Part shown: positions 3,086 to 33,600 of the stretch, piece by piece
How positions within the stretch are numbered: the first letter of the stretch is position 1
Layout: each line of letters starts with the position of its first letter
From: a virus
Reading direction: 5' to 3' (one strand)
Length of the DNA stretch: 40,866 bases
Virus record (IMG/VR): IMGVR_UViG_3300046004_002614
Location: 1-40,866 of that record
Program-made: the position numbers and the translations under genes
The notes under the pieces: model-generated
Database searches by the model: none
Told to the model about the DNA's origin: nothing
What the model saw: the letters and a program-made list of their open reading frames with translations, nothing else

Positions 3086-3403
3086 CTATTTTTCTATTAA
3101 TTCGTATGTTGAGTTTTGTGTTTGGAACTTAATATATCCAGGTCTTTGTTCTACTATTTCAGTAATAGCAGTTGTTAACCAAGTAAAATTTGTTCCTGGG
3201 TTAAGTATTAGTGAACGATTTACTTTTATGTCGTCATGTAATGAGTTATCTTCGCTGGTATTTTCATCCCATTCAATATATTGAACTCTACTACCTGTTT
3301 TAGTTAAACCATCGTTTAACCTTCTTAATGTGTACTTTGCTTTTGGTTCTTCCCTTGGAACAACTAAGTCAGCATTATATTTGTGTTGTAGTATCTTACT
3401 CAT
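3086..3403 (-). CDS. Hypothetical protein, 105 aa
   Basis: It starts MSKILQHKYN inside the last codons of the DNA ligase gene (8-nt overlap), so it is probably translated by coupling from the ligase message. It is polar and beta-rich, with a basic patch K-Y-T-L-R-R-L near residue 23. No motif, signal peptide or membrane segment is visible. Function unknown. Confidence 0.7.
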   Translation of the reverse strand: MSKILQHKYNADLVVPREEPKAKYTLRRLNDGLTKTGSRVQYIEWDENTSEDNSLHDDIKVNRSLILNPGTNFTWLTTAITEIVEQRPGYIKFQTQNSTYELIEK

Positions 3404-6334: not shown

Positions 6335-9300
6335 TTACTTTACTAAATAAGTAGCAATTTCTGGACTTATATCTTTTAACTTAATCCAAGTACTAGGTAT
6401 TTGTTGATTTTTAAGGACTTTGATTTGGCCTAATAAACCAACTACATTCCATTCAGGACGTTGTGCTCTAGGAATATAAATAAGTTCTGGGTTGAAGTTA
6501 GGACTAAGTACATTACCCATCATAATTTCAGTTTTATATTTACGGGGTCCATTTATATATTGTGGTTGAATTATAGAACCAGAAACATAATCATGATTTA
6601 GTATTTGTTCGTATCCATCAGGTACTTGGTATTCAATTTCTTGTGTTAATTTAATTCCCCAAATATCTTTTTGATATTTACCTATCCATTCATCACCTGT
6701 TCCTTCATCACTATTTCCTAATATACTTGGTTTTGCTGATATAACACCTATTGCGTTTGAAGCAGTAACACAAACTTTAATTTTTCCATCTTCTAATTCA
6801 ACTACTGTTCCATAAGGAATAGCTGTTCCATCTACTGATTCAAAGTATTCAGCGTAATCGGCGCCTCCATTAGTAAATGTAGTGCCTGAAAAACATTCTC
6901 CTGTTGAAGCTACTCTAAATGCATTTGATCTAGAACCATTACTTGTTCCATTTCCAACTAAAAAATAAGCACTTGAAAGAGAAGCAAAATCATTCCATCT
7001 TCCAACAACTGTTTGATATGACTCATAAGTAGATGTACCGTATCCTTCAGCGTGTGAATAAGAACCTGAGGATATTGTATTAACTCCTTCAGCGTGTGAA
7101 CCATCACCTATTGCTTGAGTATTAACTCCTTCAGCATGTGAATAAGAACCTATTGCTTGTGTACTACTTCCTTCAGCATGTGAATAAGAACCTGAGGATA
7201 TTGTACTAATTCCTTCTGCGTGTGAAAAATTACCTACGGCTTGAGTAGTATATCCTTCAGCATGTGAATGAGAACCTGAGGCTGTAGTAGTATATCCCTC
7301 AGCATGTGAAAAATTACCTACGGCTTGAGTACTTTCACCTTCAGCATGTGAATAAGCACCTGAGGCTGTAGTATTATATCCTTCAGCATGTGAAAAATCT
7401 CCTATTGCTTGTGTAGTATATCCTTCAGCGTGTGAATAAGAACCTGAGGATGTTGTAGAAATTCCTTCTGCGTGTGAACCTTGTCCTATTGCTTGTGTAT
7501 AAAGCCCTTCAGCATGTGAAGCAACACCTATTGCTTGAGTAATACTACCTTCTGCATGTGATGCCTCACCTATTGCTTGTGTACTACTTCCTTCAGCGTG
7601 TGAATAATCTCCAATTGCTTGTGTATCAAGTCCTTCAGCGTGTGAAGCAGAACCTGAAGATATTGTATCAAGTCCTTCAGCGTGTGAAGCAGAACCTGAA
7701 GATATTGTATCAATTCCTTCAGCGTGTGAACTATCACCTATTGCTTGAGTACTATCACCTTCTGCATGTGAATTATCACCATAGGCTATAGTATAATACC
7801 CTTCGGAATGGGATGAAAGCCCAATTGCTTGAGTACTATCACCTTCTGCATGTGCTCCTACTCCTGATGATACTGTATTGTTTCCTTCTGCATGTGAATT
7901 TAATCCAAATGATACAGACCCAGAACCTTCAGCATGTGAATTATTACCTTGTGCTATTGTTAATGTTCCTTCAGCATGTGAACTTATTCCTAATGATGTT
8001 GTTCCATTTCCCTCAGCATGTGAACTTATTCCTAATGATGTTGTTCCATTTCCCTCAGCATGGGAATAATCACCTGATGCTGTTGTAAAATATCCTTCAG
8101 CGTGAGATGTCTCTCCAATCGCTTGAGTATTATATCCTTCTGCATGTGAATAATCACCTGATGCTGTTGTAAAATATCCTTCAGCGTGTGAGGTCTCACC
8201 TATTGCTTGTGTATTACTACCTTCAGCATGGGAATAAGAACCTGAGGATATTGTACTAATTCCTTCAGCATGTGAAATATCACCTATTGCTTGTGTAATA
8301 TATCCTTCAGCGTGTGAATAAAGTCCTAATGCTTGAGTAATATATCCCTCAGCATGTGAAGCAACACCTATTGCTTGTGTATTACTACCTTCAGCATGGG
8401 AATAAGAACCTGAGGATGTTGTAGAAATTCCTTCTGCGTGTGAACCTTGTCCTATTGCTTGTGTATCAAGTCCTTCAGCATGTGAAACAAAACCTATTGC
8501 TTGTGTATCAAGTCCTTCAGCGTGTGAAGCAGAACCTGAAGATATTGTATCAAGTCCTTCAGCGTGAGATGTCTCTCCAATCGCTTGAGTATTATATCCT
8601 TCTGCATGTGAATTTAATCCAAATGATATAGATCCAGAACCTTCAGCGTGTGAAAAATCACCAGATGCAGTTGTATAACTACCTTCAGCATGTGAAAATT
8701 CTCCATCAGCTAATGTATTATATCCTTCAGCATGGGCTCCTTCTTTATTTGCTACTGTTAATTCTCCTTCAGCGTGTGAATAATTACCTACTGCTTGAGT
8801 ATCATATCCTTCAGCATGCGAATAATCTCCAATTGCTTGTAAAATGTTTGTTGGCCCTCCAGACCCACCTTCAGCATGTGAATAAGAACCTATTGCTTGT
8901 GTATTATTTCCTTCGGCATGTGAAAAATTACCTACGGCTTGAGTAGTAAATCCTTCAGCATGTGAAAAAGCACCTATTGCTTGTGTACTACTTCCTTCAG
9001 CGTGTGAATAAGAACCTGACGCTATATTTAAACGTCCTTCAGCGTGTGAAAAAGCACCTATTGCTTGTGTATTATTTCCTTCAGCATGTGAACCTTGTCC
9101 TATTGCTTGTGTACTATTTCCTTCAGCATGTGAATAAGAACCTGAGGATATTGTAAAATATCCTTCAGCGTGTGAAGCATCACCTATTGCTTGAGTACTA
9201 TCACCTTCTGCATGTGAATAAGTATTAGCAGCATTAGTATTATTACCCTCGGCATGAGAATGTAATCCTGTTGCCGTATTACCTGCTGATCCATTTTTCA

Positions 9301-9460
9301 ATGTCCCTTCTAACGTTAAACTACCACTTATACTAATATCATAATCATCAGCTGCTGTAAATGCATCTACTGACTGAGATACGTGCCATGATTCAATAAT
9401 ATAATTTTGTGCGATTTCATCAGTTCCTGCACTGAATATGTTCTGTAATACTTTTACCAT
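6335..9460 (-). CDS. Tail fibre/appendage with SHAEG repeats and C-terminal auto-processing chaperone
   Basis: The 1041-aa product has three parts. Residues 1-66 are a virion-attachment-like head. Residues about 67-806 hold 53 copies of a 14-residue repeat, [SA]-H-[AS]-E-G plus nine variable positions such as x-x-T-Q-A-I-G-x-x, which resembles the YadA/Hep-Hag left-handed beta-roll of trimeric fibres. The C-terminal 200 residues resemble the Peptidase_G2 intramolecular chaperone of phage appendages: G-A-D-Y-A-E-Y-F-E, D-G-x-x-I-P-Y-G-T-V-V-E-L, I-G-V-I-S-x-x-P and W-I-G-K-Y. In that family the domain drives trimerisation and is cut off by self-cleavage. Likely role: receptor-binding fibre. 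One repeat is lengthened by six residues (GSGGPTNIL) near residue 205. No early-type promoter precedes it; the lysin gene lies 45 nt upstream. Confidence 0.88.
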   Translation of the reverse strand: MVKVLQNIFSAGTDEIAQNYIIESWHVSQSVDAFTAADDYDISISGSLTLEGTLKNGSAGNTATGLHSHAEGNNTNAANTYSHAEGDSTQAIGDASHAEGYFTISSGSYSHAEGNSTQAIGQGSHAEGNNTQAIGAFSHAEGRLNIASGSYSHAEGSSTQAIGAFSHAEGFTTQAVGNFSHAEGNNTQAIGSYSHAEGGSGGPTNILQAIGDYSHAEGYDTQAVGNYSHAEGELTVANKEGAHAEGYNTLADGEFSHAEGSYTTASGDFSHAEGSGSISFGLNSHAEGYNTQAIGETSHAEGLDTISSGSASHAEGLDTQAIGFVSHAEGLDTQAIGQGSHAEGISTTSSGSYSHAEGSNTQAIGVASHAEGYITQALGLYSHAEGYITQAIGDISHAEGISTISSGSYSHAEGSNTQAIGETSHAEGYFTTASGDYSHAEGYNTQAIGETSHAEGYFTTASGDYSHAEGNGTTSLGISSHAEGNGTTSLGISSHAEGTLTIAQGNNSHAEGSGSVSFGLNSHAEGNNTVSSGVGAHAEGDSTQAIGLSSHSEGYYTIAYGDNSHAEGDSTQAIGDSSHAEGIDTISSGSASHAEGLDTISSGSASHAEGLDTQAIGDYSHAEGSSTQAIGEASHAEGSITQAIGVASHAEGLYTQAIGQGSHAEGISTTSSGSYSHAEGYTTQAIGDFSHAEGYNTTASGAYSHAEGESTQAVGNFSHAEGYTTTASGSHSHAEGYTTQAVGNFSHAEGISTISSGSYSHAEGSSTQAIGSYSHAEGVNTQAIGDGSHAEGVNTISSGSYSHAEGYGTSTYESYQTVVGRWNDFASLSSAYFLVGNGTSNGSRSNAFRVASTGECFSGTTFTNGGADYAEYFESVDGTAIPYGTVVELEDGKIKVCVTASNAIGVISAKPSILGNSDEGTGDEWIGKYQKDIWGIKLTQEIEYQVPDGYEQILNHDYVSGSIIQPQYINGPRKYKTEIMMGNVLSPNFNPELIYIPRAQRPEWNVVGLLGQIKVLKNQQIPSTWIKLKDISPEIATYLVK
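7043..9262 (-). repeat. 42-bp coding tandem repeat, 53 units
   Basis: Each 42-bp unit encodes one 14-residue SHAEG unit. Units differ mainly at the codons before S-H-A-E-G and in a choice between T-Q-A-I-G and T-I-S-S-G / T-T-A-S-G cores. Some adjacent units are identical at protein level (N-G-T-T-S-L-G-I-S-S twice in a row; Y-F-T-T-A-S-G-D-Y twice with one unit between), pointing to recent unit duplication. It is a protein repeat, not CRISPR. Confidence 0.92.
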
Positions 9461-9505: not shown

Positions 9506-10084
9506 TTAATCTTGGAATATTTCTTTAAGATTTTGTACTTCGATTATATGTTTTAATTTACTGATGTATGTTGTATCTTCAGCATACCTTTCATCTAATT
9601 TAGTAAAGTATTCAACTTCATTAGCTACATTACACATCATTGCACTCTGATACATTCCATAATCATGCACACAGTCAATCCAGTCTCTATAATATGCATG
9701 TCCATTTTTTTCACCTAAAGCAGTAGTAATACGTTGTCGAGGCAATTTCATTCCAAATAAATTAAAATTCTGCCTAAACATTTTTGATTTAAAATCACCT
9801 GACTCTAATTTAGCTTGAGCTAAAACAATGTGTGGATATTTGATATGGCAATCTTTAAGTAAACGAATTAATGCCTCTTCACTAAATCGTTCTCCATGTA
9901 TCAACATTGTATCAGTTACTTCGGTGGTATGGTTTATCTTATTAATGATATATTTATTGGTACCTGTAAACCAACCTAACATGAATAATAACCCTAATGT
10001 TAATAAAATACCAACATATATTTTTTTCTTTGGTCTTTCTAATCCGAGTGTTTCTTTATTATATATAAATATTTTCTTTTTCAT
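9506..10084 (-). CDS. Membrane-anchored glucosaminidase-type lysin
   Basis: The 192-aa product has a basic N-terminus, then one membrane segment at about residues 23-40, then a FlgJ/LytG-like glucosaminidase domain. Diagnostic are A-Q-A-K-L-E-S-G-D-F (catalytic Glu about 94), N-L-F-G-M-K, a Y-x-D-W-x-D-C-V-x-D-Y-G segment near 136 and Y-A-E-D-T-T-Y-I near 170. The enzyme would cut peptidoglycan glycan strands from the periplasmic face. The uncleaved-looking anchor suggests a signal-anchor endolysin or an enzyme acting during infection. Its ATG is 4 nt after the -7 element of the promoter at 10089-10120. It lies directly upstream of the fibre gene. Confidence 0.85.
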   Translation of the reverse strand: MKKKIFIYNKETLGLERPKKKIYVGILLTLGLLFMLGWFTGTNKYIINKINHTTEVTDTMLIHGERFSEEALIRLLKDCHIKYPHIVLAQAKLESGDFKSKMFRQNFNLFGMKLPRQRITTALGEKNGHAYYRDWIDCVHDYGMYQSAMMCNVANEVEYFTKLDERYAEDTTYISKLKHIIEVQNLKEIFQD

Positions 10085-10088
10085 ATTT

Positions 10089-10120
10089 TAAATATATATT
10101 ATTTTACATTATAAGCCTAG
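10089..10120 (-). promoter_or_regulatory. Promoter with weaker -33 element
   Basis: CTAGGCTTAT (CTAG at 10120-10117), 20 nt, TATATTTA (10096-10089), minus strand. The -33 differs from TTnGGATTA at several positions, but spacing and the 4-nt distance to the lysin ATG follow the family. Confidence 0.55.
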
Positions 10121-10842
10121 TCTTTTATTTTAAATATTTCATCTGCAAATCCTAGAGCTACTGTTTCCTCTGCATTTAAGATAGTATCAAAATTTAACAT
10201 CTCTTTTAGCACAATTCTAACTTCTTCTCTTTTCTTTACAGCTATTTTACTAAATAAATAATTTTTAGGTGGTGGTACTGGATACCCTAATGCACTTTGT
10301 TTAGTCATAATATCGCTTAGGTGTTTTGCTAAGTAACCGTGTCCTTCTTTTTCTTCTCTTTCTAACATAACATCTAAGTAAGTATTTTCCATTTCATAAC
10401 TTAAACGTTTTCCTTCATCAGCCCATTTCTCTACTATTTTTAAATGATCATTTCTACCATCATATCCATAATGAATCATAAATTTAGAGTTAGGCATCAT
10501 AATACGAACATCTGCTGCTTGTAAAATTACACTACCCATACTCATAGCATGTCCATACACTTTAATTGTGCAATGACAAGAAGAATATTTAATAGCATCA
10601 TATATGGCTAATCCATGAAAATAATCTCCACCAGGATTATTCATAATAATAATTATTGGATTTTTGTTTTTATGTTCTAGGACATGCATTCCTTTAATGA
10701 AATACTCTGCCATGAAGTTATCTACTCCTGATTCATAATCATCTGAAGTAGATTTAATTGAACCCATAAATAAAGTTCTATTATCAACATCTAAGTTGTT
10801 TTCAAACCATCTATCAATATTTTCTCTAATTAAATTTGCCAT
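10117..10842 (-). CDS. ClpP-like serine protease
   Basis: The 241-aa product has the S14 core: I-I-I-I-M-N-N-P-G-G-D at about 63-73 (oxyanion region), A-M-S-M-G-S with the likely nucleophile Ser101, and M-P-N-S-K-F-M-I-H with His124. The C-terminal half matches ClpP helices and ends A-E-E-T-V-A-L-G-F-A-D-E-I. It is longer than bacterial ClpP (about 200 aa) owing to an insert around residues 160-200 (G-Y-P-V-P-P-P-K). In many phages ClpP-like proteins serve as prohead proteases, in others they may join host Clp ATPases. No capsid or portal gene is adjacent, so either is possible. Confidence 0.87.
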   Translation of the reverse strand: MANLIRENIDRWFENNLDVDNRTLFMGSIKSTSDDYESGVDNFMAEYFIKGMHVLEHKNKNPIIIIMNNPGGDYFHGLAIYDAIKYSSCHCTIKVYGHAMSMGSVILQAADVRIMMPNSKFMIHYGYDGRNDHLKIVEKWADEGKRLSYEMENTYLDVMLEREEKEGHGYLAKHLSDIMTKQSALGYPVPPPKNYLFSKIAVKKREEVRIVLKEMLNFDTILNAEETVALGFADEIFKIKD

Positions 10843-13857: not shown

Positions 13858-14115
13858 TTAATAACCTCTTACTGGATCATAATTCTTCATATTTTCATTC
13901 CAAATTTCTTGTCCTGATCTATGATCCGATGCATATTTTGCTTCGTGATGTTGTTTTACTATTGGGTAACAAATAAAACATGATATTGTAAATGCCCAAA
14001 ATAAAACAGCATATTTTCCGAAATGTCCTGTTATGTACCACTTAATAAATGCAAACAATAAATAAAATAGAATAAAACCTTCTAATAATCTGAATAACCC
14101 ACCTAATAATTTCAT
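13858..14115 (-). CDS. Two-span membrane protein, 85 aa
   Basis: Two hydrophobic helices are visible at about residues 10-28 (LLEGFILFYLLFAFIKWY) and 35-53 (YAVLFWAFTISCFICYPIV). A soluble charged tail follows (H-H-E-A-K-Y-A-S-D-H-R-S-G-Q-E). The hairpin topology is compatible with a class II holin or a superinfection-exclusion protein, but the lysin gene is 4 kb away. Function undetermined. Confidence 0.75.
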   Translation of the reverse strand: MKLLGGLFRLLEGFILFYLLFAFIKWYITGHFGKYAVLFWAFTISCFICYPIVKQHHEAKYASDHRSGQEIWNENMKNYDPVRGY

Positions 14116-14138
14116 AACTTTTATTTTTTTATTATATT

Positions 14139-16590: not shown

Positions 16591-16878
16591 TTAAATTTCG
16601 TTTTCTAGATCTTCTATCTCCATTGATAGCTTTTTTTGTATTAGTTTAAAAGCCTTAGCTTTGTCAATATTCATTCCTAATTGTTTAGCTGCCTTTATGA
16701 CAATGTTAAACTTTTCATCACCTGGAGTTATCAAATCAAACACATCTAATTTATTTAATAATTTAACTTCTGCTGGTGTTCTTTGGAATAGATGTTTAAT
16801 CTTATCAACGATAGACTCCTCTTTTAATACTTTTTGAATCTCTTCTTTAATTAGAGAATGTAGTTCGGATTTTTTCAT
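16591..16878 (-). CDS. Head-targeting-tagged protein (95 aa)
   Basis: The tag here is more diverged (M-K-K-S-E-L-H-S-L-I-K-E-E-I-Q) but keeps V-L-K-E. The body is helical and Lys-rich, with D-K-I-K-H-L-F-Q-R-T-P-A-E-V-K and a C-terminal amphipathic helix (F-K-L-I-Q-K-K-L-S-M-E-I-E-D-L). It is the smallest member of the run. Function unknown. Confidence 0.76.
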   Translation of the reverse strand: MKKSELHSLIKEEIQKVLKEESIVDKIKHLFQRTPAEVKLLNKLDVFDLITPGDEKFNIVIKAAKQLGMNIDKAKAFKLIQKKLSMEIEDLENEI

Positions 16879-16879
16879 A

Positions 16880-17227
16880 TTATTTAAACTTCATTGGAAA
16901 TCCATTTTCGTCTGTAATGGATAATTTATATTTATCAACTATTATCTCTTTAGCCTTCATCACAAACATCTTATTGCTTTTTAAGTCTGCTGATCCAGCC
17001 AACATCTCTTTTATGTTGTAGTAGAAGTCAGATAATTGATCTGCTGTTTTAATGTTTGCAGACTTTCTTCTTTCAGGTCTCATATCATCAACATATCCAC
17101 CACCTTTAACCATTGGTTCTGCAATATTAACTAGTTCTAATGCAGCAGCTGCAAAGGTATTAGTGGCTTCTTTTAAAACCTTACTAATTTCTTCTTTGAT
17201 GATTTGTTTTAATTCTGAGTGTTTCAT
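16880..17227 (-). CDS. Head-targeting-tagged protein (115 aa)
   Basis: The tag starts M-K-H-S-E-L-K-Q-I-I and ends V-L-K-E. The body is helical: A-A-A-L-E-L-V-N-I-A-E-P-M-V-K, a Gly-Gly-Tyr turn, a basic R-P-E-R-R-K-S segment and K-A-K-E-I-I-V-D-K-Y. It is first in the tagged run, directly after the 47-aa basic protein gene (3 nt), so the run is probably transcribed with that gene from the late-type promoter candidate at 17388-17395. Confidence 0.78.
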   Translation of the reverse strand: MKHSELKQIIKEEISKVLKEATNTFAAAALELVNIAEPMVKGGGYVDDMRPERRKSANIKTADQLSDFYYNIKEMLAGSADLKSNKMFVMKAKEIIVDKYKLSITDENGFPMKFK

Positions 17228-17230
17228 GTT

Positions 17231-17374
17231 TTATCTTCCTTGACCTGTGTACGCTTTAGCGTAATGTTTACCTGTTTTATGTACGCTATTTTTTTTCTTA
17301 CTATGAACTCCGGGGCGTTTTATTCTTGCCTTTTTTATAACTCCACGTGATGATGTTTCTTTTGCCTTTGCCAT
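17231..17374 (-). CDS. Small, very basic phage protein (47 aa)
   Basis: The product starts M-A-K-A-K-E-T-S-S-R and contains a K-R-P-G-V-H-S-K-K-K segment, ending in Y-A-K-A-Y-T-G-Q-G-R. About one third of residues are Lys, Arg or His. Short proteins with R-P-G-V-x-x-K and a G-Q-G-R end occur in many large aquatic phages, as I recall, without a known role. A nucleic-acid-binding head protein is plausible. The gene fills the gap before the tagged run and has A-rich sequence before the ATG. Confidence 0.68.
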   Translation of the reverse strand: MAKAKETSSRGVIKKARIKRPGVHSKKKNSVHKTGKHYAKAYTGQGR

Positions 17375-17387
17375 TATCTTAATAAAT

Positions 17388-17395
17388 TATTTATA
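17388..17395 (-). promoter_or_regulatory. Possible T4-type late promoter element
   Basis: An exact TATAAATA octamer, the T4 late promoter core, lies 13 nt upstream of the ATG of the 47-aa basic gene on the minus strand. No -33 element is needed by this type. In AT-rich DNA one octamer alone is weak evidence. Confidence 0.35.
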
Positions 17396-17419
17396 TTTTA
17401 CAATACATATATTAATTTA

Positions 17420-17722
17420 TTAATTGTCAACTAAAGTTTGAATACCAATATTAATTTTTGCACATTCTTCATATAATTCGCGTTCTTCAAAGTATTTTAA
17501 ATTTTCCTTCAAAGTATCAACAAAATTAGCTCGTTCTAACGTTATATCAAATATAACATTTTCTTCAACGCACTTTACAGAAAGCACGTGTACATTTTTC
17601 TTTCGCGTTTTTTTGTTGCTTAAAATGGCACTAACAATCGCTTCTGATATACTGAAATGTTTTTTGTTAACCATGTCTTGAAATTCCTCAAGTGTGTTAA
17701 CTTTAAATTCTTTAGGTTTCAT
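17420..17722 (-). CDS. Hypothetical protein, 100 aa
   Basis: Starts M-K-P-K-E-F-K-V-N-T-L-E-E-F. Basic middle (N-K-K-T-R-K-K-N-V-H-V) between two helical regions; beta strands V-L-S-V-K-C-V and V-I-F-D-I-T-L. The C-terminus contains E-E-R-E-L-Y-E-E-C-A-K. It follows the 51-aa gene by 2 nt. Function unknown. Confidence 0.7.
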   Translation of the reverse strand: MKPKEFKVNTLEEFQDMVNKKHFSISEAIVSAILSNKKTRKKNVHVLSVKCVEENVIFDITLERANFVDTLKENLKYFEERELYEECAKINIGIQTLVDN

Positions 17723-19468: not shown

Positions 19469-20227
19469 TTAAAGATATTTTGAGTTATCTAAAGGATTAT
19501 GTTTTATATAAGAACCCCATTTGTACTTAGCGTATTCATGTCCATTCATTTCAGCTTGTCTTCTTTTTTCTCCATTTACAGATATAGAAGCAAAGTGATA
19601 AAGGTGACATTCGTATGTTCTAAGCATCTTCATTCCTGATAATTGGCATTTAAGAAAGAAATCCCAATCCGCAACCATTCCTTGCTCATAATTTTCATCC
19701 CAACCACCTACTTTTAAGTAATCTATTTTAGACATAAAAATGGGTAGTGTAGAACCAGTTTCGTCTACTTTATATCCTGAGGTAACATGGTAATCAAACA
19801 TCCAAAATTTCTCTAAATCAAATGTTTTAGGATCTCTTCCTAAATTCTCAATTATAAATTGAGGAAACATACTAGGTGTAGGTTCTATTTGATTTGGAGA
19901 TACTACTGAGTTTGGTTGATAAGATTCTAGTAATGATAGATCCCAGTTTCGTGGAAATACATTATCATCATTTACTATTAAAACTAAATCATACTTTGCA
20001 TTATAAACGCCTAAATTAGTACCTCTACATAGTCCTACATTTTCTTTTAAATCCAGTATATCAATTGATTTAGCATATTTTTCGAGTACTTCTTTATTGA
20101 TATCGTAAAAACCATCTACAACTACTATAATTTGGTTTTTTCTATCTTGCTGTCCTTCGATTGCTGATTTAAGACATAAGTCTAAGGCATCTGGGGATTT
20201 ATAAGTGGGTATTATTACTGATATCAT
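19469..20227 (-). CDS. Family 2 glycosyltransferase
   Basis: The 252-aa product has the GT-A fold order of GT2 enzymes: I-S-V-I-I-P-T-Y-K-S at the start, V-V-V-D-G-F-Y-D near 36, E-N-V-G-L-C-R-G-T-N near 62, the metal-binding V-N-D-D-N near 83, and G-G-W-D-E-N-Y near 177 followed by W-D-F-F-L. It would move a sugar from a nucleotide donor to an acceptor. It is the last gene of the island operon and overlaps the preceding gene by 4 nt. Donor and acceptor unknown. Confidence 0.88.
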   Translation of the reverse strand: MISVIIPTYKSPDALDLCLKSAIEGQQDRKNQIIVVVDGFYDINKEVLEKYAKSIDILDLKENVGLCRGTNLGVYNAKYDLVLIVNDDNVFPRNWDLSLLESYQPNSVVSPNQIEPTPSMFPQFIIENLGRDPKTFDLEKFWMFDYHVTSGYKVDETGSTLPIFMSKIDYLKVGGWDENYEQGMVADWDFFLKCQLSGMKMLRTYECHLYHFASISVNGEKRRQAEMNGHEYAKYKWGSYIKHNPLDNSKYL

Positions 20228-20910
20228 ATTTTATTCCAATCCGTTAATGGTGACAAAAATGGTACTTCACAATGTGTTGAATAACCAGGTATAGAGGAAA
20301 TTAAATTAGATCCTTGCTCCCATAAATTAATAAATTTAGTGTGATCATAACCATCGTGAGTGTGTTCGGGACTACAATATTTCATATGAATATCCCAATG
20401 TTTTTTAAAAGTACTCCATTTACCAGCATATGTGTTACAAGTTGATGGAGTAGTTCTCCAATGGATAGATGGGGTATGTAAAATTTTTGATTGTAATTGT
20501 TCATACATTGCTAAAAAATACTTATCAGGGTGATCATATAACGTAACATAATCTACACTAAAATTATCAAAAGCCTCTTTTAATATTAATTCCCAGTTAG
20601 GAATGTGCATATAATCATCTTCAACTATATATATTATATCATCATTTTGTAAATTTGAATTTTTAATTGTTTCAAGACAAAATTTAAAACTAGCAGCGTC
20701 ACTTCCACCTGTATATTCTATTATATTATCTTCATCATCAAATTTAAAATGGTGATCCACTTTATTACCATCAAGTAATATTGTTAAATCAACATCCGCA
20801 TTCTTTATTGAACGATAACACCTTTCATAAGAAAACCAATTAGGTCTCACTTCTTGTTTTCTTAGATTAGCTTTATTATAGTGTCTTAAATATACTTTTA
20901 TTTTACTCAT
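20224..20910 (-). CDS. Glycosyltransferase-like protein (228 aa)
   Basis: A GT-A-like pattern is visible: I-T-L-type strand with L-T-I-L-L-D-G-N near 47, S-D-A-A-S-F-K-F-C-L near 70, and I-Y-I-V-E-D-D-Y-M-H near 92, where E-D-D is the probable DxD metal site. H-W-R-T-T-P-S-T near 147 is like the acceptor-side motif of related enzymes. Overlaps the next gene in the operon by 4 nt. Family is not certain, and the enzyme role is inferred from the E-D-D motif and context. Confidence 0.7.
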   Translation of the reverse strand: MSKIKVYLRHYNKANLRKQEVRPNWFSYERCYRSIKNADVDLTILLDGNKVDHHFKFDDEDNIIEYTGGSDAASFKFCLETIKNSNLQNDDIIYIVEDDYMHIPNWELILKEAFDNFSVDYVTLYDHPDKYFLAMYEQLQSKILHTPSIHWRTTPSTCNTYAGKWSTFKKHWDIHMKYCSPEHTHDGYDHTKFINLWEQGSNLISSIPGYSTHCEVPFLSPLTDWNKI

Positions 20911-21574
20911 GACATATCCATTTTGGGTTAATTAATGTTTTAATTGGTGATAAATCTTTATCTAGTGGTTTTCTAGGATATAAATGTAATTGAGTATTTT
21001 CTAAATTCAAAGTCTCAATTACAAAAAATAAGGCTGTAGAAACAGTATGTATTTCTTCTGCTTGTTCCAAAACACCACACCAGTCTAATAATGTAAAACC
21101 ACTAATATATTCTTGATAGACAATTTTTAAATTTGTTTGTAATTTAATATCTACTTTATAATTATACTCAGGTCCAGCGAAATTATTATTAATAAATATA
21201 AATTTATCCGTTGAAGATATATTTAGATGTTGTTTTAATTTATTTTCTTTTTCTTGATTTCTATTAAATGATAATGTCCTCCATAATTCAGGATCTACAT
21301 TTAACATATTGTATTTAGCTTGCATACAATCTTCTGCTTGAGGAATGATTGAATGAGCATGTTGGAAAGGAACCTCAGTATAATTTGTATAATCTGTTAT
21401 TTTATATTCTGATTGTTTTATGAATGTGAGATTATCTATTTTAATATATTCTTTTATCCAATAATAATGATCTACTATAGGCCATATGGCTTCCTCAATA
21501 TCTAAACGAGAAACTAATGGTTGAAGGAATAATATATCTCCAATACCAAAAGGTTGATTAATTATTACTTTCAT
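20903..21574 (-). CDS. GT9/GT-B-like glycosyltransferase, probable (223 aa)
   Basis: From the ATG at 21574 (ATGA overlap with the upstream gene) the product begins M-K-V-I-I-N-Q-P-F-G-I-G-D-I-L-F-L-Q-P-L, the nucleotide-sugar-binding start seen in ADP-heptose-type GT9 enzymes. E-I-H-T-V-S-T-A-L-F-F-V-I-E-T-L near 170 resembles the second Rossmann domain. At 223 aa it is shorter than a full GT-B enzyme, so it may be a reduced form. Acts within the island. Confidence 0.65.
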   Translation of the reverse strand: MKVIINQPFGIGDILFLQPLVSRLDIEEAIWPIVDHYYWIKEYIKIDNLTFIKQSEYKITDYTNYTEVPFQHAHSIIPQAEDCMQAKYNMLNVDPELWRTLSFNRNQEKENKLKQHLNISSTDKFIFINNNFAGPEYNYKVDIKLQTNLKIVYQEYISGFTLLDWCGVLEQAEEIHTVSTALFFVIETLNLENTQLHLYPRKPLDKDLSPIKTLINPKWICHE

Positions 21575-22323
21575 GAACAAATTTTTTCTAGGTAGGGTTT
21601 AACATCATCATTAAATTGATTAAAATCTAATTTAATAGGCATTGTACCTCCAGCTTGATGTAATACTTTTACTGTTTTATTATTTAGTTTTAATTTACCA
21701 TTTTCAACATATATTTGTTTCCATGAGTCCCAATGGTTTGTCTCACCCCAAACATTTGATAAACCGTAATATAAATCAGTACCAAAATCATCTATTATAT
21801 GTGAATTATATTTTTCTGAGTGGAATAACATATTTAATGTATCATTTTCTCCAAAAGGTAGATGGTCTGATAATTCAAAATTTAGGTTAATCCAATCTTC
21901 ATAAAATTCTTTATTAGATACAGCTACTAATCCAGCATTTATATATTTAGTATAATGAACATCTTTACAACTTATTGGATTATCTTTCCCTGCTTTATGA
22001 TAATCATTAGTATTTCTAACACCAATAACATCATACTTTGAAACATTTTCTAATAATTCATCAATCCTATCAACTAACATAGAATCAGCATCCATATGAA
22101 TAATTGTTTTATAATGATCAGTTAACATATAGGATACTATTGGGTGAATATTATTCCAATTAATTCTTGGATCCTCATCCATAATTTTATTTAAGGTTTC
22201 ATCTCCAAATACTATTAAATCTAATTCAGGGTGGAAAAATTGGATGGATTTTACTAATTTATGAGCTCCAATACTATCATATAAATGATCGGAAACATGA
22301 GTGCAAATAACTATATCTTTCAT
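21571..22323 (-). CDS. GT8-like glycosyltransferase (250 aa)
   Basis: The sequence shows an N-terminal D-I-V-I-C-T-H-V strand, then K-T-I-I-H-M-D-A-D-S-M-L near 72-83 with the D-A-D metal site of GT8-type enzymes, and Y-I-N-A-G-L-V-A-V-S near 125, the typical N-A-G motif. A late L-H-Q-A-G-G fits the family's C-terminal His-Gly. Probably transfers a hexose. Follows the 198-aa gene by 12 nt. Confidence 0.8.
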   Translation of the reverse strand: MKDIVICTHVSDHLYDSIGAHKLVKSIQFFHPELDLIVFGDETLNKIMDEDPRINWNNIHPIVSYMLTDHYKTIIHMDADSMLVDRIDELLENVSKYDVIGVRNTNDYHKAGKDNPISCKDVHYTKYINAGLVAVSNKEFYEDWINLNFELSDHLPFGENDTLNMLFHSEKYNSHIIDDFGTDLYYGLSNVWGETNHWDSWKQIYVENGKLKLNNKTVKVLHQAGGTMPIKLDFNQFNDDVKPYLEKICS

Positions 22324-22335
22324 ATGTAATAAAAT

Positions 22336-22932
22336 TTACGGTGTAATTAAAATAAAACCTTGTTCTGTATAATACTCAGTTATAGTCCTATCAGGAAAAA
22401 ATTGGTATATAAAACTCTCATCTCCTAATTTATAGAGTAACCGATCTTCCCAATTACCCCCCTCATATGGACCATCCTTATAAATTCTTAAATCATCTAA
22501 TATAATAACATCATTGAAGTTTGATCTATATTTCATTATTAATTCAAGTTCATCTTTTAGAGGTATGGCTTGATTCTTATAAAAGTCAATTGATTCTTGA
22601 TAGGTCATCTTTTTAAAATCAGCAAAAGGAAAATGTGCATCTAAGAAAAACAAAACATTATCTTTATCTATTAACTCATTTTGTAATATTTTATTTAAAA
22701 AATCAAATGAATTGTTACAACTATAGGTAACTCTATCCATACATCCTAATCGATTAGAGGCTTGGATTAACATATCAGGGTCTATATCAACTGTATATAT
22801 ATTGTTTAATGAGTTGATATTTAGTGCTACTTGTAGACTATTACCCTCTCCTGTACCTGTTTCTACATATGTTTCTATACTATAGAAATCACATAATTGT
22901 TTTAAATTAATTTTATTTAAAGGATTTCCCAT
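22336..22932 (-). CDS. SAM-dependent methyltransferase-like protein (198 aa)
   Basis: Class I features: Y-V-E-T-G-T-G-E-G-N-S-L near 18-29 (motif I), Y-T-V-D-I-D-P-D near 47 (motif II acidic residue) and N-V-L-F-F-L-D-A-H near 93 (motif IV). The layout resembles the O-methyltransferases found next to phage and capsule glycosyltransferases. Likely modifies the island's sugar. Adjacent to the split transketolase C-half. Confidence 0.72.
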   Translation of the reverse strand: MGNPLNKINLKQLCDFYSIETYVETGTGEGNSLQVALNINSLNNIYTVDIDPDMLIQASNRLGCMDRVTYSCNNSFDFLNKILQNELIDKDNVLFFLDAHFPFADFKKMTYQESIDFYKNQAIPLKDELELIMKYRSNFNDVIILDDLRIYKDGPYEGGNWEDRLLYKLGDESFIYQFFPDRTITEYYTEQGFILITP

Positions 22933-22935
22933 AAT

Positions 22936-23412
22936 TTATCGTTTTAAGTTTAAATAACAAGGTTCAGTACAATTAAATACTTCATCTAATATTTGATTAA
23001 TATTATCCATTTCAGGCCAGTATGATTTAATATTTTTAAAAGAATTTAACATCACATCTTCATCTTCCTCAGCCCAATGACTAAAACCATCATGAGAATA
23101 ATCTTTATCTCTTCCGGATCCAATTAGTTTTATGTTAAGTTGTTCTTTATTAACATAGTTTCTAATTAATTCAAATGGTCTATATATCAAAAATGGAGTA
23201 ATAGAATATGCTATAGGTTTTTTTCCTTCATAAGCAGCTCCAACACATAATCCAATCATTAGTTGTTCTGAAGCCCCACAGTTGATAAAATTATTAGGGT
23301 GGTTGGTTTTAATGCTATCAAACATACCATAACCCAAATCTGCTGTAATTAATAAAATAGAAGGATCTTGTTCTATTTTATTTTCTAAATATTTTGCGAA
23401 TGTTCTTCTCAT
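22936..23412 (-). CDS. Transketolase pyrimidine-binding half (158 aa)
   Basis: Residues 1-158 match the second (Pyr) domain of transketolase: M-R-R-T-F-A-K-Y-L start, L-L-I-T-A-D-L-G near 20, and N-C-G-A-S-E-Q near 44-50, where Glu49 is the expected ThDP-activating glutamate. The third, C-terminal domain is missing. The partner is the 206-aa N-half encoded upstream, separated by an FkbM gene. Together they would form a minimal two-subunit ThDP enzyme moving a two-carbon ketol unit, perhaps to build an unusual sugar. It overlaps the FkbM gene by 4 nt. Confidence 0.82.
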   Translation of the reverse strand: MRRTFAKYLENKIEQDPSILLITADLGYGMFDSIKTNHPNNFINCGASEQLMIGLCVGAAYEGKKPIAYSITPFLIYRPFELIRNYVNKEQLNIKLIGSGRDKDYSHDGFSHWAEEDEDVMLNSFKNIKSYWPEMDNINQILDEVFNCTEPCYLNLKR

Positions 23413-24098
23413 TTTCTATAACAATATAATGAATCTTCATTTAAATTTTCAACTTCCCAACCTAAACTAGAGAATAATGTATTATATTTATCTCTATATT
23501 CTCTATAATGGATTCCATTAGTTGTATGGAACTCTATGAAAAATTTCTTAACATATTCTCCTAAAGTTTTGATATTTTCTTCACTCAAAAATTTTATTTC
23601 AGAACCCTCAATATCTATCTTTAAAAAATCAATAACTTTTAAATCAAACATATCTACTATATTTTTTAATGTATATGTTTGAACAATTACTTCCATTCCC
23701 CCTTTTCCACTCATTAGCGAATTTTCAGTTGTATCGTCTAATATGTAAAAACTAGTTAATTCATTTTTATCTGAAATGGCTCCTTGTACACATTCTATAT
23801 TTTTAAAATCTTTTGTAAAATGTTTTAATATGTTAAAATGTGATGGTGTAGGTTCTACTGAAATTATTTTGTCAGCATAAGAGGATAAATGTATTGATAC
23901 TAAACCTATATTTGCTCCTAAATCAACAATTACTTTATCATCTTCATTTACAAATTTTTTATAGTAATCTGAATTTGTTTGGTTTAATATTGGTACGGTG
24001 CAACATCTTGGGTTATTAAAGTGGTTCTGAAGTACTTCAGATGATATATCTAAATTTAGAACATCGTTGTTTATAAGTTTTAATTGTTTTGTTTCCAT
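23409..24098 (-). CDS. FkbM-family methyltransferase
   Basis: The 229-aa product has V-I-V-D-L-G-A-N-I-G-L at about 56-66 (SAM-binding loop), I-I-S-V-E-P-T-P near 79, and F-L-K-I-D-I-E-G-S-E near 166, the hallmark of FkbM enzymes, which mostly O-methylate sugars or polyketides. It sits between the two transketolase halves, a suggestive location for methylating the same sugar. Spaced 1 nt from the N-half and overlapping the C-half. Confidence 0.88.
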   Translation of the reverse strand: METKQLKLINNDVLNLDISSEVLQNHFNNPRCCTVPILNQTNSDYYKKFVNEDDKVIVDLGANIGLVSIHLSSYADKIISVEPTPSHFNILKHFTKDFKNIECVQGAISDKNELTSFYILDDTTENSLMSGKGGMEVIVQTYTLKNIVDMFDLKVIDFLKIDIEGSEIKFLSEENIKTLGEYVKKFFIEFHTTNGIHYREYRDKYNTLFSSLGWEVENLNEDSLYCYRK

Positions 24099-24099
24099 A

Positions 24100-24720
24100 T
24101 TATTTAATTATAGTATTAAGGTTAGCTACTTCATAATGAGCGGCTAATGGGGTTTGAGTTTCAAAAATTTCATTAACATTAGTATAATGAATATTAATTT
24201 TTAGTAAAAATGATTTTAATCTTTGAGATAATTTTTCAACATTTACTGGTTTGTAAGCAGCCCAACCATTTATATTGGCATGTATTTCAATATTTGAAAT
24301 ATCATTTTCATCTATAAATCTTAACGCTTCCCAAATACTCCCTTCTGCACATTCTCCATCAGATATTAAACAATATACTTTAATTTTTGGATTAGCTAAT
24401 GCTATTCCTGTTGCTATAGTAATACCTAATCCTAAACTACCTGTTGATACTTCAATAAAATTTCCCAAATCACGTTCAGGATGAATTCCATGAGTTTCTA
24501 ATAAATATTCAGCATCAACCCCATGAAAATGTTCTAATACGACATATAAAGCTAATCCAGCATGTCCACTTGATAATATAAATTTATCTTCAGATTTTTT
24601 ATTATTATATATTTCATAAATTATAGGTAGAGCTGTAAAGCAACTTCCCAAATGAGATAATTTATGTTTGATACTTATTTCAAGTATTCTTTTATTTAAT
24701 TTATCTATATTTTTTTTCAT
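24100..24720 (-). CDS. Transketolase ThDP-binding half (206 aa)
   Basis: The N-terminal PP domain is visible: L-S-H-L-G-S-C near 21, L-S-S-G-H-A-G near 49, G-S-L-G-L-G near 94, and the ThDP motif S-D-G-E at 120-123 with Asn at 149. At 206 aa it is shorter than the roughly 270 aa of usual split transketolase N-subunits. It needs the 158-aa C-half for the active site. Overlaps the epimerase gene by 20 nt. Confidence 0.85.
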   Translation of the reverse strand: MKKNIDKLNKRILEISIKHKLSHLGSCFTALPIIYEIYNNKKSEDKFILSSGHAGLALYVVLEHFHGVDAEYLLETHGIHPERDLGNFIEVSTGSLGLGITIATGIALANPKIKVYCLISDGECAEGSIWEALRFIDENDISNIEIHANINGWAAYKPVNVEKLSQRLKSFLLKINIHYTNVNEIFETQTPLAAHYEVANLNTIIK

Positions 24721-25534
24721 AAATTTCTTTTAAACCAGTTTCTAAGTTATATTTTGGATTGAATTTATATTTTGATTTAGCATAAGTTATATCAGCTACC
24801 CAATTTAAACCATCGTATTTATTAAATATATTATCTATTTTTTCATATTTCAAATTTAAATTAAATATTTTTTTTATAATATGAAAAACTTCTAAATTTG
24901 AATATTGAACTCCACCCCCAAAATGAACTATATCTCCCAACATAATTTCTTTTTCGGAATAAAGTACTGAAAATATACCATCAATAAAATCATCTATATG
25001 GATAAAATCATGTACCCCTAAACTTATTTTAGATATATTATTATTTTTAAAATTTCTAAATAAAGTAGGTATTAATCTATTACTAGGTTCATTTATTCCA
25101 TATACACTAAATGGTCTAACTATAGCTATAGGTTTATTATATTCTCTAGCAAATCCTTGACATAATAATGAGCTGGCTCCTTTTGTCCCCTCATACATTG
25201 TTCTAGGTTTTAATGATTCTTTTTCAGACATAGGTATATTAGTTTCCCCATATTCAGAAGATGATCCTAAACTAACAAAAGCTTTATAATTAATATCCTT
25301 TGTAACATTTAAAAGCCAATTAGTCATTAATATGTTTGATTCAAATGTTTTTGAAGGATCTTTAATTTCAGCTGCACAATGAATTATATAATCTGGGTTG
25401 AAATTTTTGATATGATTAGATAATTCTAAAGAAGTTTGCCAATTTCTTCCTATTAGAAGTATGGTCTCACCAGATAATCTTTCTATTAAAGATTTCCCAA
25501 TAAATCCAGTACCTCCAGTTATTAAATATTTCAT
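24701..25534 (-). CDS. NAD-dependent sugar epimerase/dehydratase
   Basis: The 277-aa extended-SDR protein has G-G-T-G-F-I-G at 7-13 for NAD binding, a catalytic Ser near 91 in S-L-G-S-S-S-E-Y-G, and Y-x-x-x-K at 114-118 (Y-E-G-T-K). R-P-F-S-V-Y-G near 140 is the family motif. It probably converts a nucleotide-sugar feeding the island's transferases. Overlaps its neighbours on both sides, so tightly cotranscribed. Confidence 0.9.
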   Translation of the reverse strand: MKYLITGGTGFIGKSLIERLSGETILLIGRNWQTSLELSNHIKNFNPDYIIHCAAEIKDPSKTFESNILMTNWLLNVTKDINYKAFVSLGSSSEYGETNIPMSEKESLKPRTMYEGTKGASSLLCQGFAREYNKPIAIVRPFSVYGINEPSNRLIPTLFRNFKNNNISKISLGVHDFIHIDDFIDGIFSVLYSEKEIMLGDIVHFGGGVQYSNLEVFHIIKKIFNLNLKYEKIDNIFNKYDGLNWVADITYAKSKYKFNPKYNLETGLKEIYEKKYR

Positions 25535-26022
25535 TTTTTCTCTCCCATTACCATAAATGCATTATTTAGATCTACTCCTGATTTGAAAATATTAATATAT
25601 CCTCTGTCTTCCATGTAATCAGCAATTATTTCAGATGTAAAAATATTTAAGTGTTTTCTATTATTCCAAGGTCTCCAATATGCTTGTGAGTAATCTGGGA
25701 GGTAGAGAAATAATGTACCTCCTTTTTTAAGTTTGGAAGTCCAATAATCTAATACTTCCACCCAATCATATACATGTTCTAAACAATGTGAACTAAATAT
25801 ATAGTCTAACTTTTCATATGGAAAATCTAATGCTGTATATCCATTAAGATCAGGGTCAACTGTTTGAGCTCCGGGGAATGCCCAGTCTTCTTTCATACAA
25901 CCTACATCAACACCAAATCCTTTACATACATGTTTAGCAAATGGGATTGCAAATTGAGCAGCATATCCTTCTTCTTGGAATTTAGGATACACATTTGATT
26001 TATATTCTATTGTTTTTATCAT
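25531..26022 (-). CDS. Class I methyltransferase (163 aa)
   Basis: The short product has F-G-V-D-V-G-C near 36-42 (motif I), a D-P-D-L near 57, and I-F-S-S-H-C-L-E-H-V near 75-84, typical of Methyltransf_11-type enzymes. The C-terminal strands end in F-M-V-M-G-E-K-K. Likely acts on a sugar or small molecule. Coupled by ATGA overlaps to both flanking genes. Confidence 0.8.
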   Translation of the reverse strand: MIKTIEYKSNVYPKFQEEGYAAQFAIPFAKHVCKGFGVDVGCMKEDWAFPGAQTVDPDLNGYTALDFPYEKLDYIFSSHCLEHVYDWVEVLDYWTSKLKKGGTLFLYLPDYSQAYWRPWNNRKHLNIFTSEIIADYMEDRGYINIFKSGVDLNNAFMVMGEKK

Positions 26023-26672
26023 ATGTTTTCGTAAAATTTATTTTGTTTTTCTTGTCTTGTTATTTCTTTTGGATGATATAAACTCCAAACCTCTTCTGCT
26101 GGTAGTGGGGAGAATGTTTTAGTACCCTTAATTCGCTCATGTACTTTACCTTCCCATCTAATTTCAGGAATATTTTTGTAAATACGTGTTTGATAATCAG
26201 GAAAATTAACCCATCCTTTATCACTTACATTCCATCCCCATTTAGCAATATGTTCAGGTGTAAGACCTTCTACTGTATTTACTCTAGGAACTAAGAACAT
26301 ATCCACTTCTGGATTTTGTTCTAACATTAATGGTAAAAGTTTAACTAAATCGATGTGAGGTATTTCATCAGCATCTATAGAGAATATATAATCTCCTGTT
26401 GCTTGCTTAAATAATTCATTTTTAAACGTAGCAAAATCATTGTTTAATGGAAATTGATAACATTTACTGTTTGTAATAGCATCTATTAATTCCTCTTTAT
26501 GATTAAAACCAGTAAATAAATTACAAACTTCATGTACTTCATTTGTGGTGTTAACACTATCTAACTGAATTATTACCTCGTCTTCTTTACGAATATTTAA
26601 TTTTAAGAAACGAAGTAATTTTTCAAGTTCAATATGTTCATTACAAGCAGTAATACAATAAGATATTTTCAT
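26019..26672 (-). CDS. Family 2 glycosyltransferase, first gene of the island operon
   Basis: The 217-aa product shows I-S-Y-C-I-T-A-C-N-E at the start, E-V-I-I-Q-L-D near 32, and Y-I-F-S-I-D-A-D-E-I-P near 94-104 with the D-A-D metal site, typical of GT2. W-E-G-K-V-H-E-R near 173 resembles the C-terminal motif of SunS- or WaaE-like members. The ATG is 4 nt after the -7 element at 26677, so a leaderless transcript is predicted for the whole operon that follows. Confidence 0.87.
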   Translation of the reverse strand: MKISYCITACNEHIELEKLLRFLKLNIRKEDEVIIQLDSVNTTNEVHEVCNLFTGFNHKEELIDAITNSKCYQFPLNNDFATFKNELFKQATGDYIFSIDADEIPHIDLVKLLPLMLEQNPEVDMFLVPRVNTVEGLTPEHIAKWGWNVSDKGWVNFPDYQTRIYKNIPEIRWEGKVHERIKGTKTFSPLPAEEVWSLYHPKEITRQEKQNKFYENI

Positions 26673-26676
26673 ACTG

Positions 26677-26708
26677 TAAATATAAAAAATTAATTTTTAT
26701 AATCCAAA
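26677..26708 (-). promoter_or_regulatory. Promoter of the glycan island
   Basis: TTTGGATTAT (TTTG at 26708-26705), 20 nt, TATATTTA (26684-26677), minus strand. It separates the 152-aa zinc protein gene from the GT2 gene and probably drives the nine overlapping or adjacent genes to 19469. Confidence 0.75.
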
Positions 26709-27167
26709 TTATTCTGGAATGACTCCTATAAATGAAAGAGCATCCATAAATTCATTTTGCTCAAATGATTTCATTGTAGTCATGTCCATTCTCCATTCAT
26801 AAAATTTACCTGGTTTGCCTTTAATTGGGTATTTTGTTTTTTCTGCTTCAGTTACTTCTATTGCTTTAACAGCTGCCCATTTAGCATTTTCTTTGTTTGT
26901 ACCGTTGTAAAACACCATTCCGTTTTGAGGTAGGTTTACTGTTGTAGGCATCCAAATTAAGCCATTTACATCTGTAGATATTACATCTTTGTAGATTTCA
27001 GGTAATACTTCTAGTTGTTCTTCATAGAATTTTTCTCCTTCTTTCATTAATGAATTGGTTGTAAATCCACATCCAAAACAAGAATATGTTTTAACTGTTG
27101 GAGCTGATTCTACTTCGTAGCAAGCATCTGATCCACAGTGCTTACAAATTATTAAATTGTCTTCCAT
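26709..27167 (-). CDS. Zinc-ribbon protein, 152 aa
   Basis: The N-terminus has a four-cysteine zinc ribbon: C-K-H-C near 8-11 and C-F-G-C near 30-33. The rest is alpha/beta with W-M-P-T-T-V-N-L-P-Q-N-G-M-V-F and W-R-M-D-M-T-T-M-K near the end. The cysteine pattern suits a nucleic-acid or protein-binding domain. It lies directly after a GT4 gene and ends at the island promoter. Function unknown. Confidence 0.72.
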   Translation of the reverse strand: MEDNLIICKHCGSDACYEVESAPTVKTYSCFGCGFTTNSLMKEGEKFYEEQLEVLPEIYKDVISTDVNGLIWMPTTVNLPQNGMVFYNGTNKENAKWAAVKAIEVTEAEKTKYPIKGKPGKFYEWRMDMTTMKSFEQNEFMDALSFIGVIPE

Positions 27168-27168
27168 T

Positions 27169-28470
27169 TTATATTTTAGTTAATTTTGGTAATTCTATTT
27201 TTTTAAGTGTTGGTAGTTTTAAAGCTACTTGTTTTGGAAATTCAGGAATACGTTTTAAATGTTCAGCTAATCTTTCAGTCATTTTTTCAAATGAAAAATT
27301 AGTTTTAGAATAGAATCCTTGACGTTTAGCTCCATCCGTATAGTCTTTGTAGTTTTCAAACACATCTTTTAAATAAAATCCTACTCTGCTATTATCTGGA
27401 GTAAACCATTGTGATTCTTTCATCAACATATTATTAGCAGCACTCGGATGAACGTTAGTTAATGTACCACCTATTAATGATGTAAACTCTTGATTTAAAA
27501 AATCAACATGTCCACTCCAATTAGTTGTAATTAATGGCTTTTTACTTTGAGTAAACTCAAGTAATGGACGTCCAAAACCTTCACCTTTAGTTAACGAGAA
27601 CATCGCTTTTATTTTTGGGTGGTTGTATATTTCGTTTATTTCAGCGTCTGTAAATTCACCATTAAGTAAGTAGATATTTGGTAAGTCAGTTGAATTAATC
27701 GATGTTTTAATTTGATTAATGCGTTTTAGTACTTCATCTCTATCCATATAAGATGGACTTACTATTGATGTTTTTAAGATAAGTGCTGGTCTATTCTTTT
27801 TGTTTTTAAATGTTTCTAAAAATGCTTTAATTAACAAACCTACATTTTTTCTATCTTCACCTATATCTCCTGGTAGCCAGTGTCCTACAAATAAATAGCA
27901 GAATTCTTCTTTGATTGTATTTAAATCACCAATTTCTTTATTTGGTGTATCTAAGTATTTGTAGATGTTTGTATCAATTCCTTCAAACAATACTTCAATT
28001 GGAGTAGTTATTTCAATAGTTCCCTCAGGTTGTTTCGTTTGGTTATTCATTCTTTGATATTTAGAATCAATAAATGCTTTTTTAGAGTGTTCAGATGAAA
28101 CTAATACTAAATTCATTCTATTTACTCCTTCAACCCAATCACTAGGTACAATTGTTGTTTCTAATCCTGCAGTAATACCGATATTGTATTTTCCTACTTT
28201 TTGGAATTCTTGAGGTATAGTAATCCAAATAAAAATATCTGGTTGGTATGGTAGTTTTGGTGTTAGTATAAAACGTTCCTCTAAAAATTTCCATTCAGGA
28301 TTTTCTTCAATAAAACCTGTTGGGGTATTTCCCCATGCGCATGGAATAATTTTAATATCCCATTCATCTTTCTTTAAATCGATAATTGATTTAACTGTAT
28401 CTCTTGATCTTGAACCATAACCACTTAAAGTGTCTACGGGTGCATATATTACACAACTTGTTTTGTTCAT
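27169..28470 (-). CDS. GT4-type glycosyltransferase (433 aa)
   Basis: A two-domain GT-B enzyme. The second domain has G-E-G-F-G-R-P-L-L-E near residues 295-304, the E-x7-E site that binds the donor's phosphates, and I-T-T-N-W-S-G-H shortly after. The first domain holds I-Y-A-P-V-D-T-L-S-G-Y-G-S-R-S with the Gly-rich start of GT4 enzymes. It follows the other GT4 by 1 nt, so both probably act on the same product. Confidence 0.88.
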   Translation of the reverse strand: MNKTSCVIYAPVDTLSGYGSRSRDTVKSIIDLKKDEWDIKIIPCAWGNTPTGFIEENPEWKFLEERFILTPKLPYQPDIFIWITIPQEFQKVGKYNIGITAGLETTIVPSDWVEGVNRMNLVLVSSEHSKKAFIDSKYQRMNNQTKQPEGTIEITTPIEVLFEGIDTNIYKYLDTPNKEIGDLNTIKEEFCYLFVGHWLPGDIGEDRKNVGLLIKAFLETFKNKKNRPALILKTSIVSPSYMDRDEVLKRINQIKTSINSTDLPNIYLLNGEFTDAEINEIYNHPKIKAMFSLTKGEGFGRPLLEFTQSKKPLITTNWSGHVDFLNQEFTSLIGGTLTNVHPSAANNMLMKESQWFTPDNSRVGFYLKDVFENYKDYTDGAKRQGFYSKTNFSFEKMTERLAEHLKRIPEFPKQVALKLPTLKKIELPKLTKI

Positions 28471-28471
28471 T

Positions 28472-33345: not shown

Positions 33346-33600
33346 CTAAAGATCTCCATATATATTGAATTTTTTTACTGGAGGGGGAGGAGGTGGTGCA
33401 ACATCTTCTGTTGTAATGATGTATAGTTCTCCTTTTAAAGGCGATAACTTAAAATCGTAAGGTGTATTTACTGTTTGATAATACGCTTCTAACGTTTCAG
33501 TTAGTGATAGATGAACAGTGTTTGTAGTATCATCTACTAAACACCATTTATCGCCTGGAGGGTTTCTCCGGGCGATTAATATGTATACTTCTTTTTTCAT
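33346..33600 (-). CDS. Hypothetical protein with polyproline, 84 aa
   Basis: Starts M-K-K-E-V-Y-I-L-I-A-R-R and ends with a run of seven prolines before V-K-K-F-N-I-Y-G-D-L. Overlaps the GroEL stop by one base, so probably cotranscribed with the chaperonin genes. The polyproline tail suggests a protein-binding or linker role. Function unknown. Confidence 0.7.
   Translation of the reverse strand: MKKEVYILIARRNPPGDKWCLVDDTTNTVHLSLTETLEAYYQTVNTPYDFKLSPLKGELYIITTEDVAPPPPPPVKKFNIYGDL

Follow-up and report, generated by a model that had tools for sequence, protein, structure and literature searches.

A putative tail fiber with a 53-unit YadA-type shaft and a Peptidase_G2 chaperone domain in an uncultured phage

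Known repeat and chaperone modules and the fiber gene

Trimeric autotransporter adhesins (BpaC, 7o23; AtaA, 3wp8; YadA, 1p9h) carry a 14-residue repeat (Pfam PF05658) which the phage fiber protein described here matches in sequence and in part of the fold. Unlike these adhesins, the fiber has SHAEG as the repeat core, lacks both a secretion signal and a membrane anchor domain, and ends in a phage chaperone. The C-terminal domain of the pre-neck appendage protein gp12 of Bacillus phage phi29 (3suc, 3gqh) is homologous to that of the fiber in sequence and predicted fold, and the two cleavage motifs align residue for residue; however, the gp12 body is a beta-helix appendage without YadA repeats, whereas the domain in the fiber follows a 53-unit shaft. 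The gp12 chaperone reportedly cuts itself off, and self-cleavage has been reported for the Peptidase_G2 (G2) family to which it belongs. G2 chaperones occur in phi29 and in Staphylococcus and Bacillus phages, and one annotated “pre-neck appendage protein” of a Lachnospiraceae phage (H49) aligns with the fiber over both repeats and chaperone.

The tail spike Dpo31 (28nb) of Cobetia phage Carin-1 likewise ends in a homologous auto-chaperone, D4, but has a depolymerase beta-helix as its body; this marine relative loses its D4 domain on expression, and self-removal of the chaperone has been suggested (PMC13317679). Marine phage tail fibers with YadA-like domains are also known, and they share with the present fiber a modular host recognition with variable C-terminal halves, although the pelagiphage fibers differ in having a T7-type N terminus or a Peptidase_S74 chaperone (PMC3909814, PMC7029224). 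Among cultured Bacteroidota phages, Flavobacterium phage immuto (MW353175-7) has an annotated tail spike with 10 HAEG units, but without the Peptidase_G2 motif and with N and C termini that differ from those of our fiber. Both YadA domains in phage fibers and G2 chaperones are known, and the protein described here is a large, regular further example.

The window, i.e., the whole stretch of DNA analyzed, is a 40.9-kb virus fragment that encodes a T4-type DNA polymerase, a clamp loader, GroEL, a DNA ligase, and glycosyltransferases. The fiber gene (positions 6335 to 9460, minus strand) is an intact ORF of 1,041 amino acids (aa) with an ATG start. All of its parts are given here on the same strand. 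An N-terminal anchor module with a short linker (aa 1 to 67, 9260 to 9460; ..ESWHVSQSVDAF..YDISISGSL..), mostly 55 to 78% identical to relatives over about 54 aa, is followed by a shaft of 53 YadA-head-type 14-residue units (aa 68 to 815, 7016 to 9259), a cap or neck that links shaft and chaperone (aa 816 to 867, 6860 to 7015; QTVVGRWN..FLVGNGTSNGSRSNAFRV..), and a Peptidase_G2 auto-chaperone domain of 174 aa that is predicted to be released (aa 868 to 1041, 6338 to 6859). Only YadA_head and Peptidase_G2 were above the cutoff among the Pfam matches of the protein, with TPR_7 under its cutoff.

We consider it highly likely that this gene encodes a virion fiber, most probably a tail fiber, of an uncultured contractile-tail phage, built of an anchor, a probable 53-coil beta-roll shaft, a cap, and a probably removable chaperone, and we infer its trimeric state, cleavage, tail location, and receptor binding.

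Composition and turnover of the repeat shaft

A motif scan counted 53 [SA]H[SA]EG units, which occupy 71.9% of the protein, in line with the initial annotation of 53 units of 14 residues covering over 70% of it. The spacing between units is 14 aa in 51 of 52 cases and 20 aa in the other, with unit 10 (aa 194 to 213, 8822 to 8881; SHAEGGSGGPTNILQAIGDY) carrying a six-residue insertion as the sole off-length unit. The YadA head profile PF05658 matched six stretches of the protein (59.1 bits versus a cutoff of 25; E = 4.6e-16), and a PDB sequence search with the repeats returned the BpaC head (7o23, E = 9.2e-16) and other adhesin heads. In a model of the C-terminal part (aa 740 to 1041; mean pLDDT, 83), the repeats matched the adhesin heads 3wp8, 9gh4, and 7o23 with a probability of 1.00 and modest E values (4.5e-3 to 4e-2). 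A model of aa 1 to 151 had confident repeats, a low-confidence anchor, and no PDB fold match, a monomer model being a weak test of an obligate trimer.

The units are less alike than the “near-identical” repeats, with S-H-A-E-G in every unit, that had first been described. Their mean pairwise identity is about 60% in amino acids and 68% in nucleotides, with a minimum of 36% in amino acids; the motif is SHAEG in 50 units, AHAEG in two, and SHSEG in one, such that H, E, and G alone are kept in 53/53. To call the array unusually uniform is fair for one of its length, as SHAEG is present in 94% of units and mean amino acid identity is about 0.59 compared to 0.39 to 0.59 in nearly all of the 30 relatives listed, but a relative with 16 units (L062) exceeds it, at 0.70. 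The shaft is nevertheless among the longest and most regular of the YadA type in the relatives found (53 units; maximum, 59). As had been proposed, the units belong to two core classes, TQAIG-like and TISSG/TTASG-like, in about equal halves (26 of the 52 regular units have Q at position 9 of the unit), and units of the same class are more alike (72% versus 63% nucleotide identity). Their order, however, cannot be told from a random one (31 runs versus 27.0 ± 3.6).

Duplication has left clear traces within the array. Twelve exact direct matches reach or exceed 36 nt, the longest of which (71 nt) joins units 17 and 18 (8486 to 8569) to units 38 and 39 (7604 to 7687), whereas shuffling codons within columns yielded a mean of 0.03 such matches, the longest being 39 nt. 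As the exact matches extend no further than about 1.7 units and whole-unit shuffling yields similar values, pieces of one to two units appear to have been exchanged at scattered distances. Compared at equal sample size with the syntenic fiber of the related contig G004, 47 of the 53 units are nearer to a unit of their own array than to any G004 unit. Together, within-array homogenization and long exact duplications point to lineage-specific turnover, with shaft length evolving by gain and loss of units, and they bear out the earlier reading of repeated duplication and unit exchange. The identical neighboring units that were part of that reading are confined to one pair, units 29 and 30 (7982 to 8065), a tandem duplication with 97.6% nucleotide identity and the only adjacent pair identical in amino acids; overall, identity between adjacent units is 0.683, compared to 0.678 in permutations (P = 0.31). 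Tandem slippage as the dominant recent process was rejected, given that neighbors are no more alike than random units and that lags 1 to 4 give no strong signal (identity at lag 2 is slightly higher than expected; P = 0.035, uncorrected). A higher-order repeat period was likewise unconvincing, with only lag 23 slightly raised (P = 0.02, uncorrected).

Synonymous codon diversity is lower at most of the conserved unit positions than in the remaining window, for example for Ser (0.29 versus 0.71) and Ala (0.38 versus 0.59), His being the exception (0.48 in the array versus 0.36), a pattern that fits descent from few founder units plus selection on the protein. We propose that the array would grow and homogenize by in-frame duplication, deletion, and inter-unit recombination while selection preserves H, A, E, G, and T at the structural positions; shaft length and C-terminal module would thereby change between lineages, slowly, rather than within each population. 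On the plus strand, open frames lie opposite the array at 7813 to 8088 and 8650 to 8946 and are apparently a by-product of its repeat codon pattern.

Relatives were sought among viral contigs with the non-repeat ends of the fiber protein as queries, and proteins that share its N-terminal module or its chaperone have 0 to 59 units. The DNA polymerase of G004 is 84% identical to that of the window, and its syntenic fiber has 456 aa, 21 units, and no chaperone domain. In three pairs of relatives with unequal arrays, L007/L018 (18 versus 13 units), L167/L179 (12 versus 14), and L008/L030 (10 versus 7), the units at the C-terminal end are colinear and the differences lie elsewhere, and in L031/L057 the units at the N-terminal end are colinear. 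The expectation in the initial annotation that fiber length can vary is thus supported over evolutionary time, by the 21-unit syntenic orthologue, the 3 to 59 units of other relatives, and block differences between pairs, but rapid variation is not.

A rival reading would have the array act as a rapidly length-varying contingency element, in which slippage or recombination varies fiber length within one population and so tunes host reach. The long exact direct matches could recombine, and the lineage-specific homogenization and wide range of unit numbers agree with such a role. Against it, the near-identical sister contig G001 carries an identical 53-unit fiber gene despite 13 SNPs and one indel of about 210 bp over 36.7 kb; the three immuto isolates have 10 units each in genes of the same length; and in L193/L194, whose flanks are about 90% identical, the 11 units all keep the same order and none is nearer to its own array, which suggests that array turnover is real but slow relative to the 10% divergence of this pair. 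That neighbors resemble each other no more than random units do is, moreover, what is expected of old, since-diverged tandem duplications. Targeted scans found few near-identical phages that differ in unit number, in a sample of close pairs that is small and drawn from assemblies in which short reads could hide length variants. We regard the contingency role as improbable and favor slow change between lineages, unit number looking stable in the short term. Because coil number is evident from the sequence, the family offers a natural series for relating fiber length to adsorption, and it may also inform how phage repeat arrays stay homogenized and yet stable.

Two small differences between close relatives were also observed. 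At positions 14104 to 14129 of the window, G001 (L201, about 9911 to 10149) has approximately 210 bp extra; the junction is a TTTTCATAACTTTTATTTTTTT-like direct repeat of about 26 nt, from the start of a minus-strand gene. Recombination between the repeat copies has therefore probably removed or added a small gene. Between the immuto tail spikes L224 and L041, six substitutions within 28 nt (gene nucleotides 3101 to 3128) at the tip are the sole differences and look like a short recombination patch. A diversity-generating retroelement was rejected as their source, since the substitutions also affect bases other than adenine and the retrieved stretch contained no template copy.

The C-terminal domain and its predicted cleavage

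The assignment of a Peptidase_G2-type domain in the initial annotation is supported. The PF11962 profile scored 102.5 bits against a cutoff of 25 (E = 2.9e-29), a PDB sequence search with the C terminus matched the chaperone fragments of phi29 gp12 and Dpo31, and a Foldseek search with the model of aa 740 to 1041 returned pre-mature gp12 (3suc, E = 3.7e-13) and its released fragment (3gqh, E = 8.1e-9), placing the domain in the phi29 gp12 type. The Peptidase_S74 (endosialidase) chaperone was absent from the Pfam matches to an E value of ≤1.

The phi29 gp12 protein has 854 aa with D at position 692, and the solved released fragment 3gqh comprises 163 aa (692 to 854); because this fragment starts at D692, the phi29 cut falls at 691|692, and the equivalent in the fiber is A867|D868 (GGA|DYAEYFE, 6857 to 6862). 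The cleavage motif [SA]|D[YF]AEYFE is present and aligned with phi29 S691|D692, and from this alignment we judge that the domain is probably cut off at A867|D868. It is conceivable instead that an inactive G2 descendant is retained in the mature fiber and serves only for trimerization. This possibility draws on the residue before the cut, which is A here and S in phi29; yet A occupies this position in 71 of 72 aligned sequences, a set that was chosen by the cleavage motif, whose invariance there is partly built in. Further, D868, Y/F869, A870, and E871 agree with phi29 and Dpo31, and the sequence around the site mostly agrees with a family reported to cut itself, making retention of the domain unlikely.

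By analogy to phi29 gp12, trimerization and autocleavage of the fiber can be pictured as follows. The N-terminal module of about 55 residues would dock on the virion, the shaft would consist of 53 stacked 14-residue coils forming a YadA-type left-handed beta-roll, and the C-terminal domain would nucleate joint folding of three chains. After trimer formation, the Peptidase_G2 domain would cut A867|D868 and depart, leaving an irreversibly folded fiber of about 867 residues per chain. Coils of beta-solenoids stack at about 0.48 nm each, from which the shaft would be about 25 nm long.

The cap is predicted to be the C-terminal end of the mature fiber, and a similar cap (QTVVGSYN..FIVGIGNS..) is present in the chaperone-less G004 orthologue. 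With 52 residues left past the shaft after processing, the binding part could be the cap, the shaft itself, or an additional protein. That the near-tipless fiber uses its repeat surface as an evolvable, multivalent receptor-binding part is a speculative option that we think rather doubtful; if it does so, both the length and the variable positions 6, 7, 13, and 14 would be edited unit by unit by recombination.

Probable virion location and host

The anchor module is predicted to attach the fiber to the virion. It is common to many fibers with unrelated C termini, and relatives in virion gene clusters share the anchor or the chaperone, with C termini swapped. The fiber is part of a large modular family whose members swap the anchor, the length of the shaft, and the chaperone or tip at the C terminus. 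The module has no match in about 85,000 cellular genomes, and a prophage home was rejected.

In the window, a glucosaminidase/endolysin-like gene, a ClpP-like (head-maturation-type) protease gene, and genes for replication or metabolism are neighbors of the fiber gene; near it in this fragment, the ClpP-like protease gene was the sole virion gene recognized. The tail location is therefore deduced from relatives. A relative with the HVSQSV anchor, SHAEG repeats, and the G2 domain (L046/L029) lies directly upstream of two tail-sheath genes, an anchor protein in L177 is directly upstream of the tail sheath, and a SHAEG-G2 protein in L053 is upstream of terminase and portal.

A moron-like product, i.e., a secreted or cell-surface adhesin of the infected cell, might also be considered, since YadA repeats are typical of bacterial adhesins, the window has no tail genes beside the fiber gene, and the G004 fiber gene sits among genes for PKD and CHU_C (type IX secretion) proteins. 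However, inspection by eye found no signal peptide at the protein start (MVKVLQNIFSAGTDEIAQ), the YadA_anchor membrane domain was not among Pfam matches to an E value of ≤1, and Pfam gave no type IX secretion signal in the fiber protein. The Peptidase_G2 domain is, in addition, matched by phage appendage proteins, and the tail-sheath, portal, and terminase genes adjoining the relatives also speak for a virion protein. We therefore hold an adhesin of the infected cell to be very improbable and retain the virion fiber as our interpretation.

The best matches to the repeats include Flavobacterium phages, which, together with the CHU_C and PKD proteins encoded next to the G004 fiber, suggests a Bacteroidota host. 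In G004, the PKD-domain proteins and the CHU_C type IX secretion-signal protein are encoded at L204:12755-15296 and 16732-17508; phage-borne exported proteins that use the host type IX system would be unusual. No RNA families or tRNAs were found in the window. Closely packed ORFs at 19469 to 29920 include sugar genes encoding a GtrB-like protein, a nucleotide-sugar epimerase, and two phrog_2170 glycosyltransferases, and the phage-encoded GroEL (33600 to 35234; phrog_5725, E = 2e-149) is 81% identical in nucleotides to its counterpart in G004.
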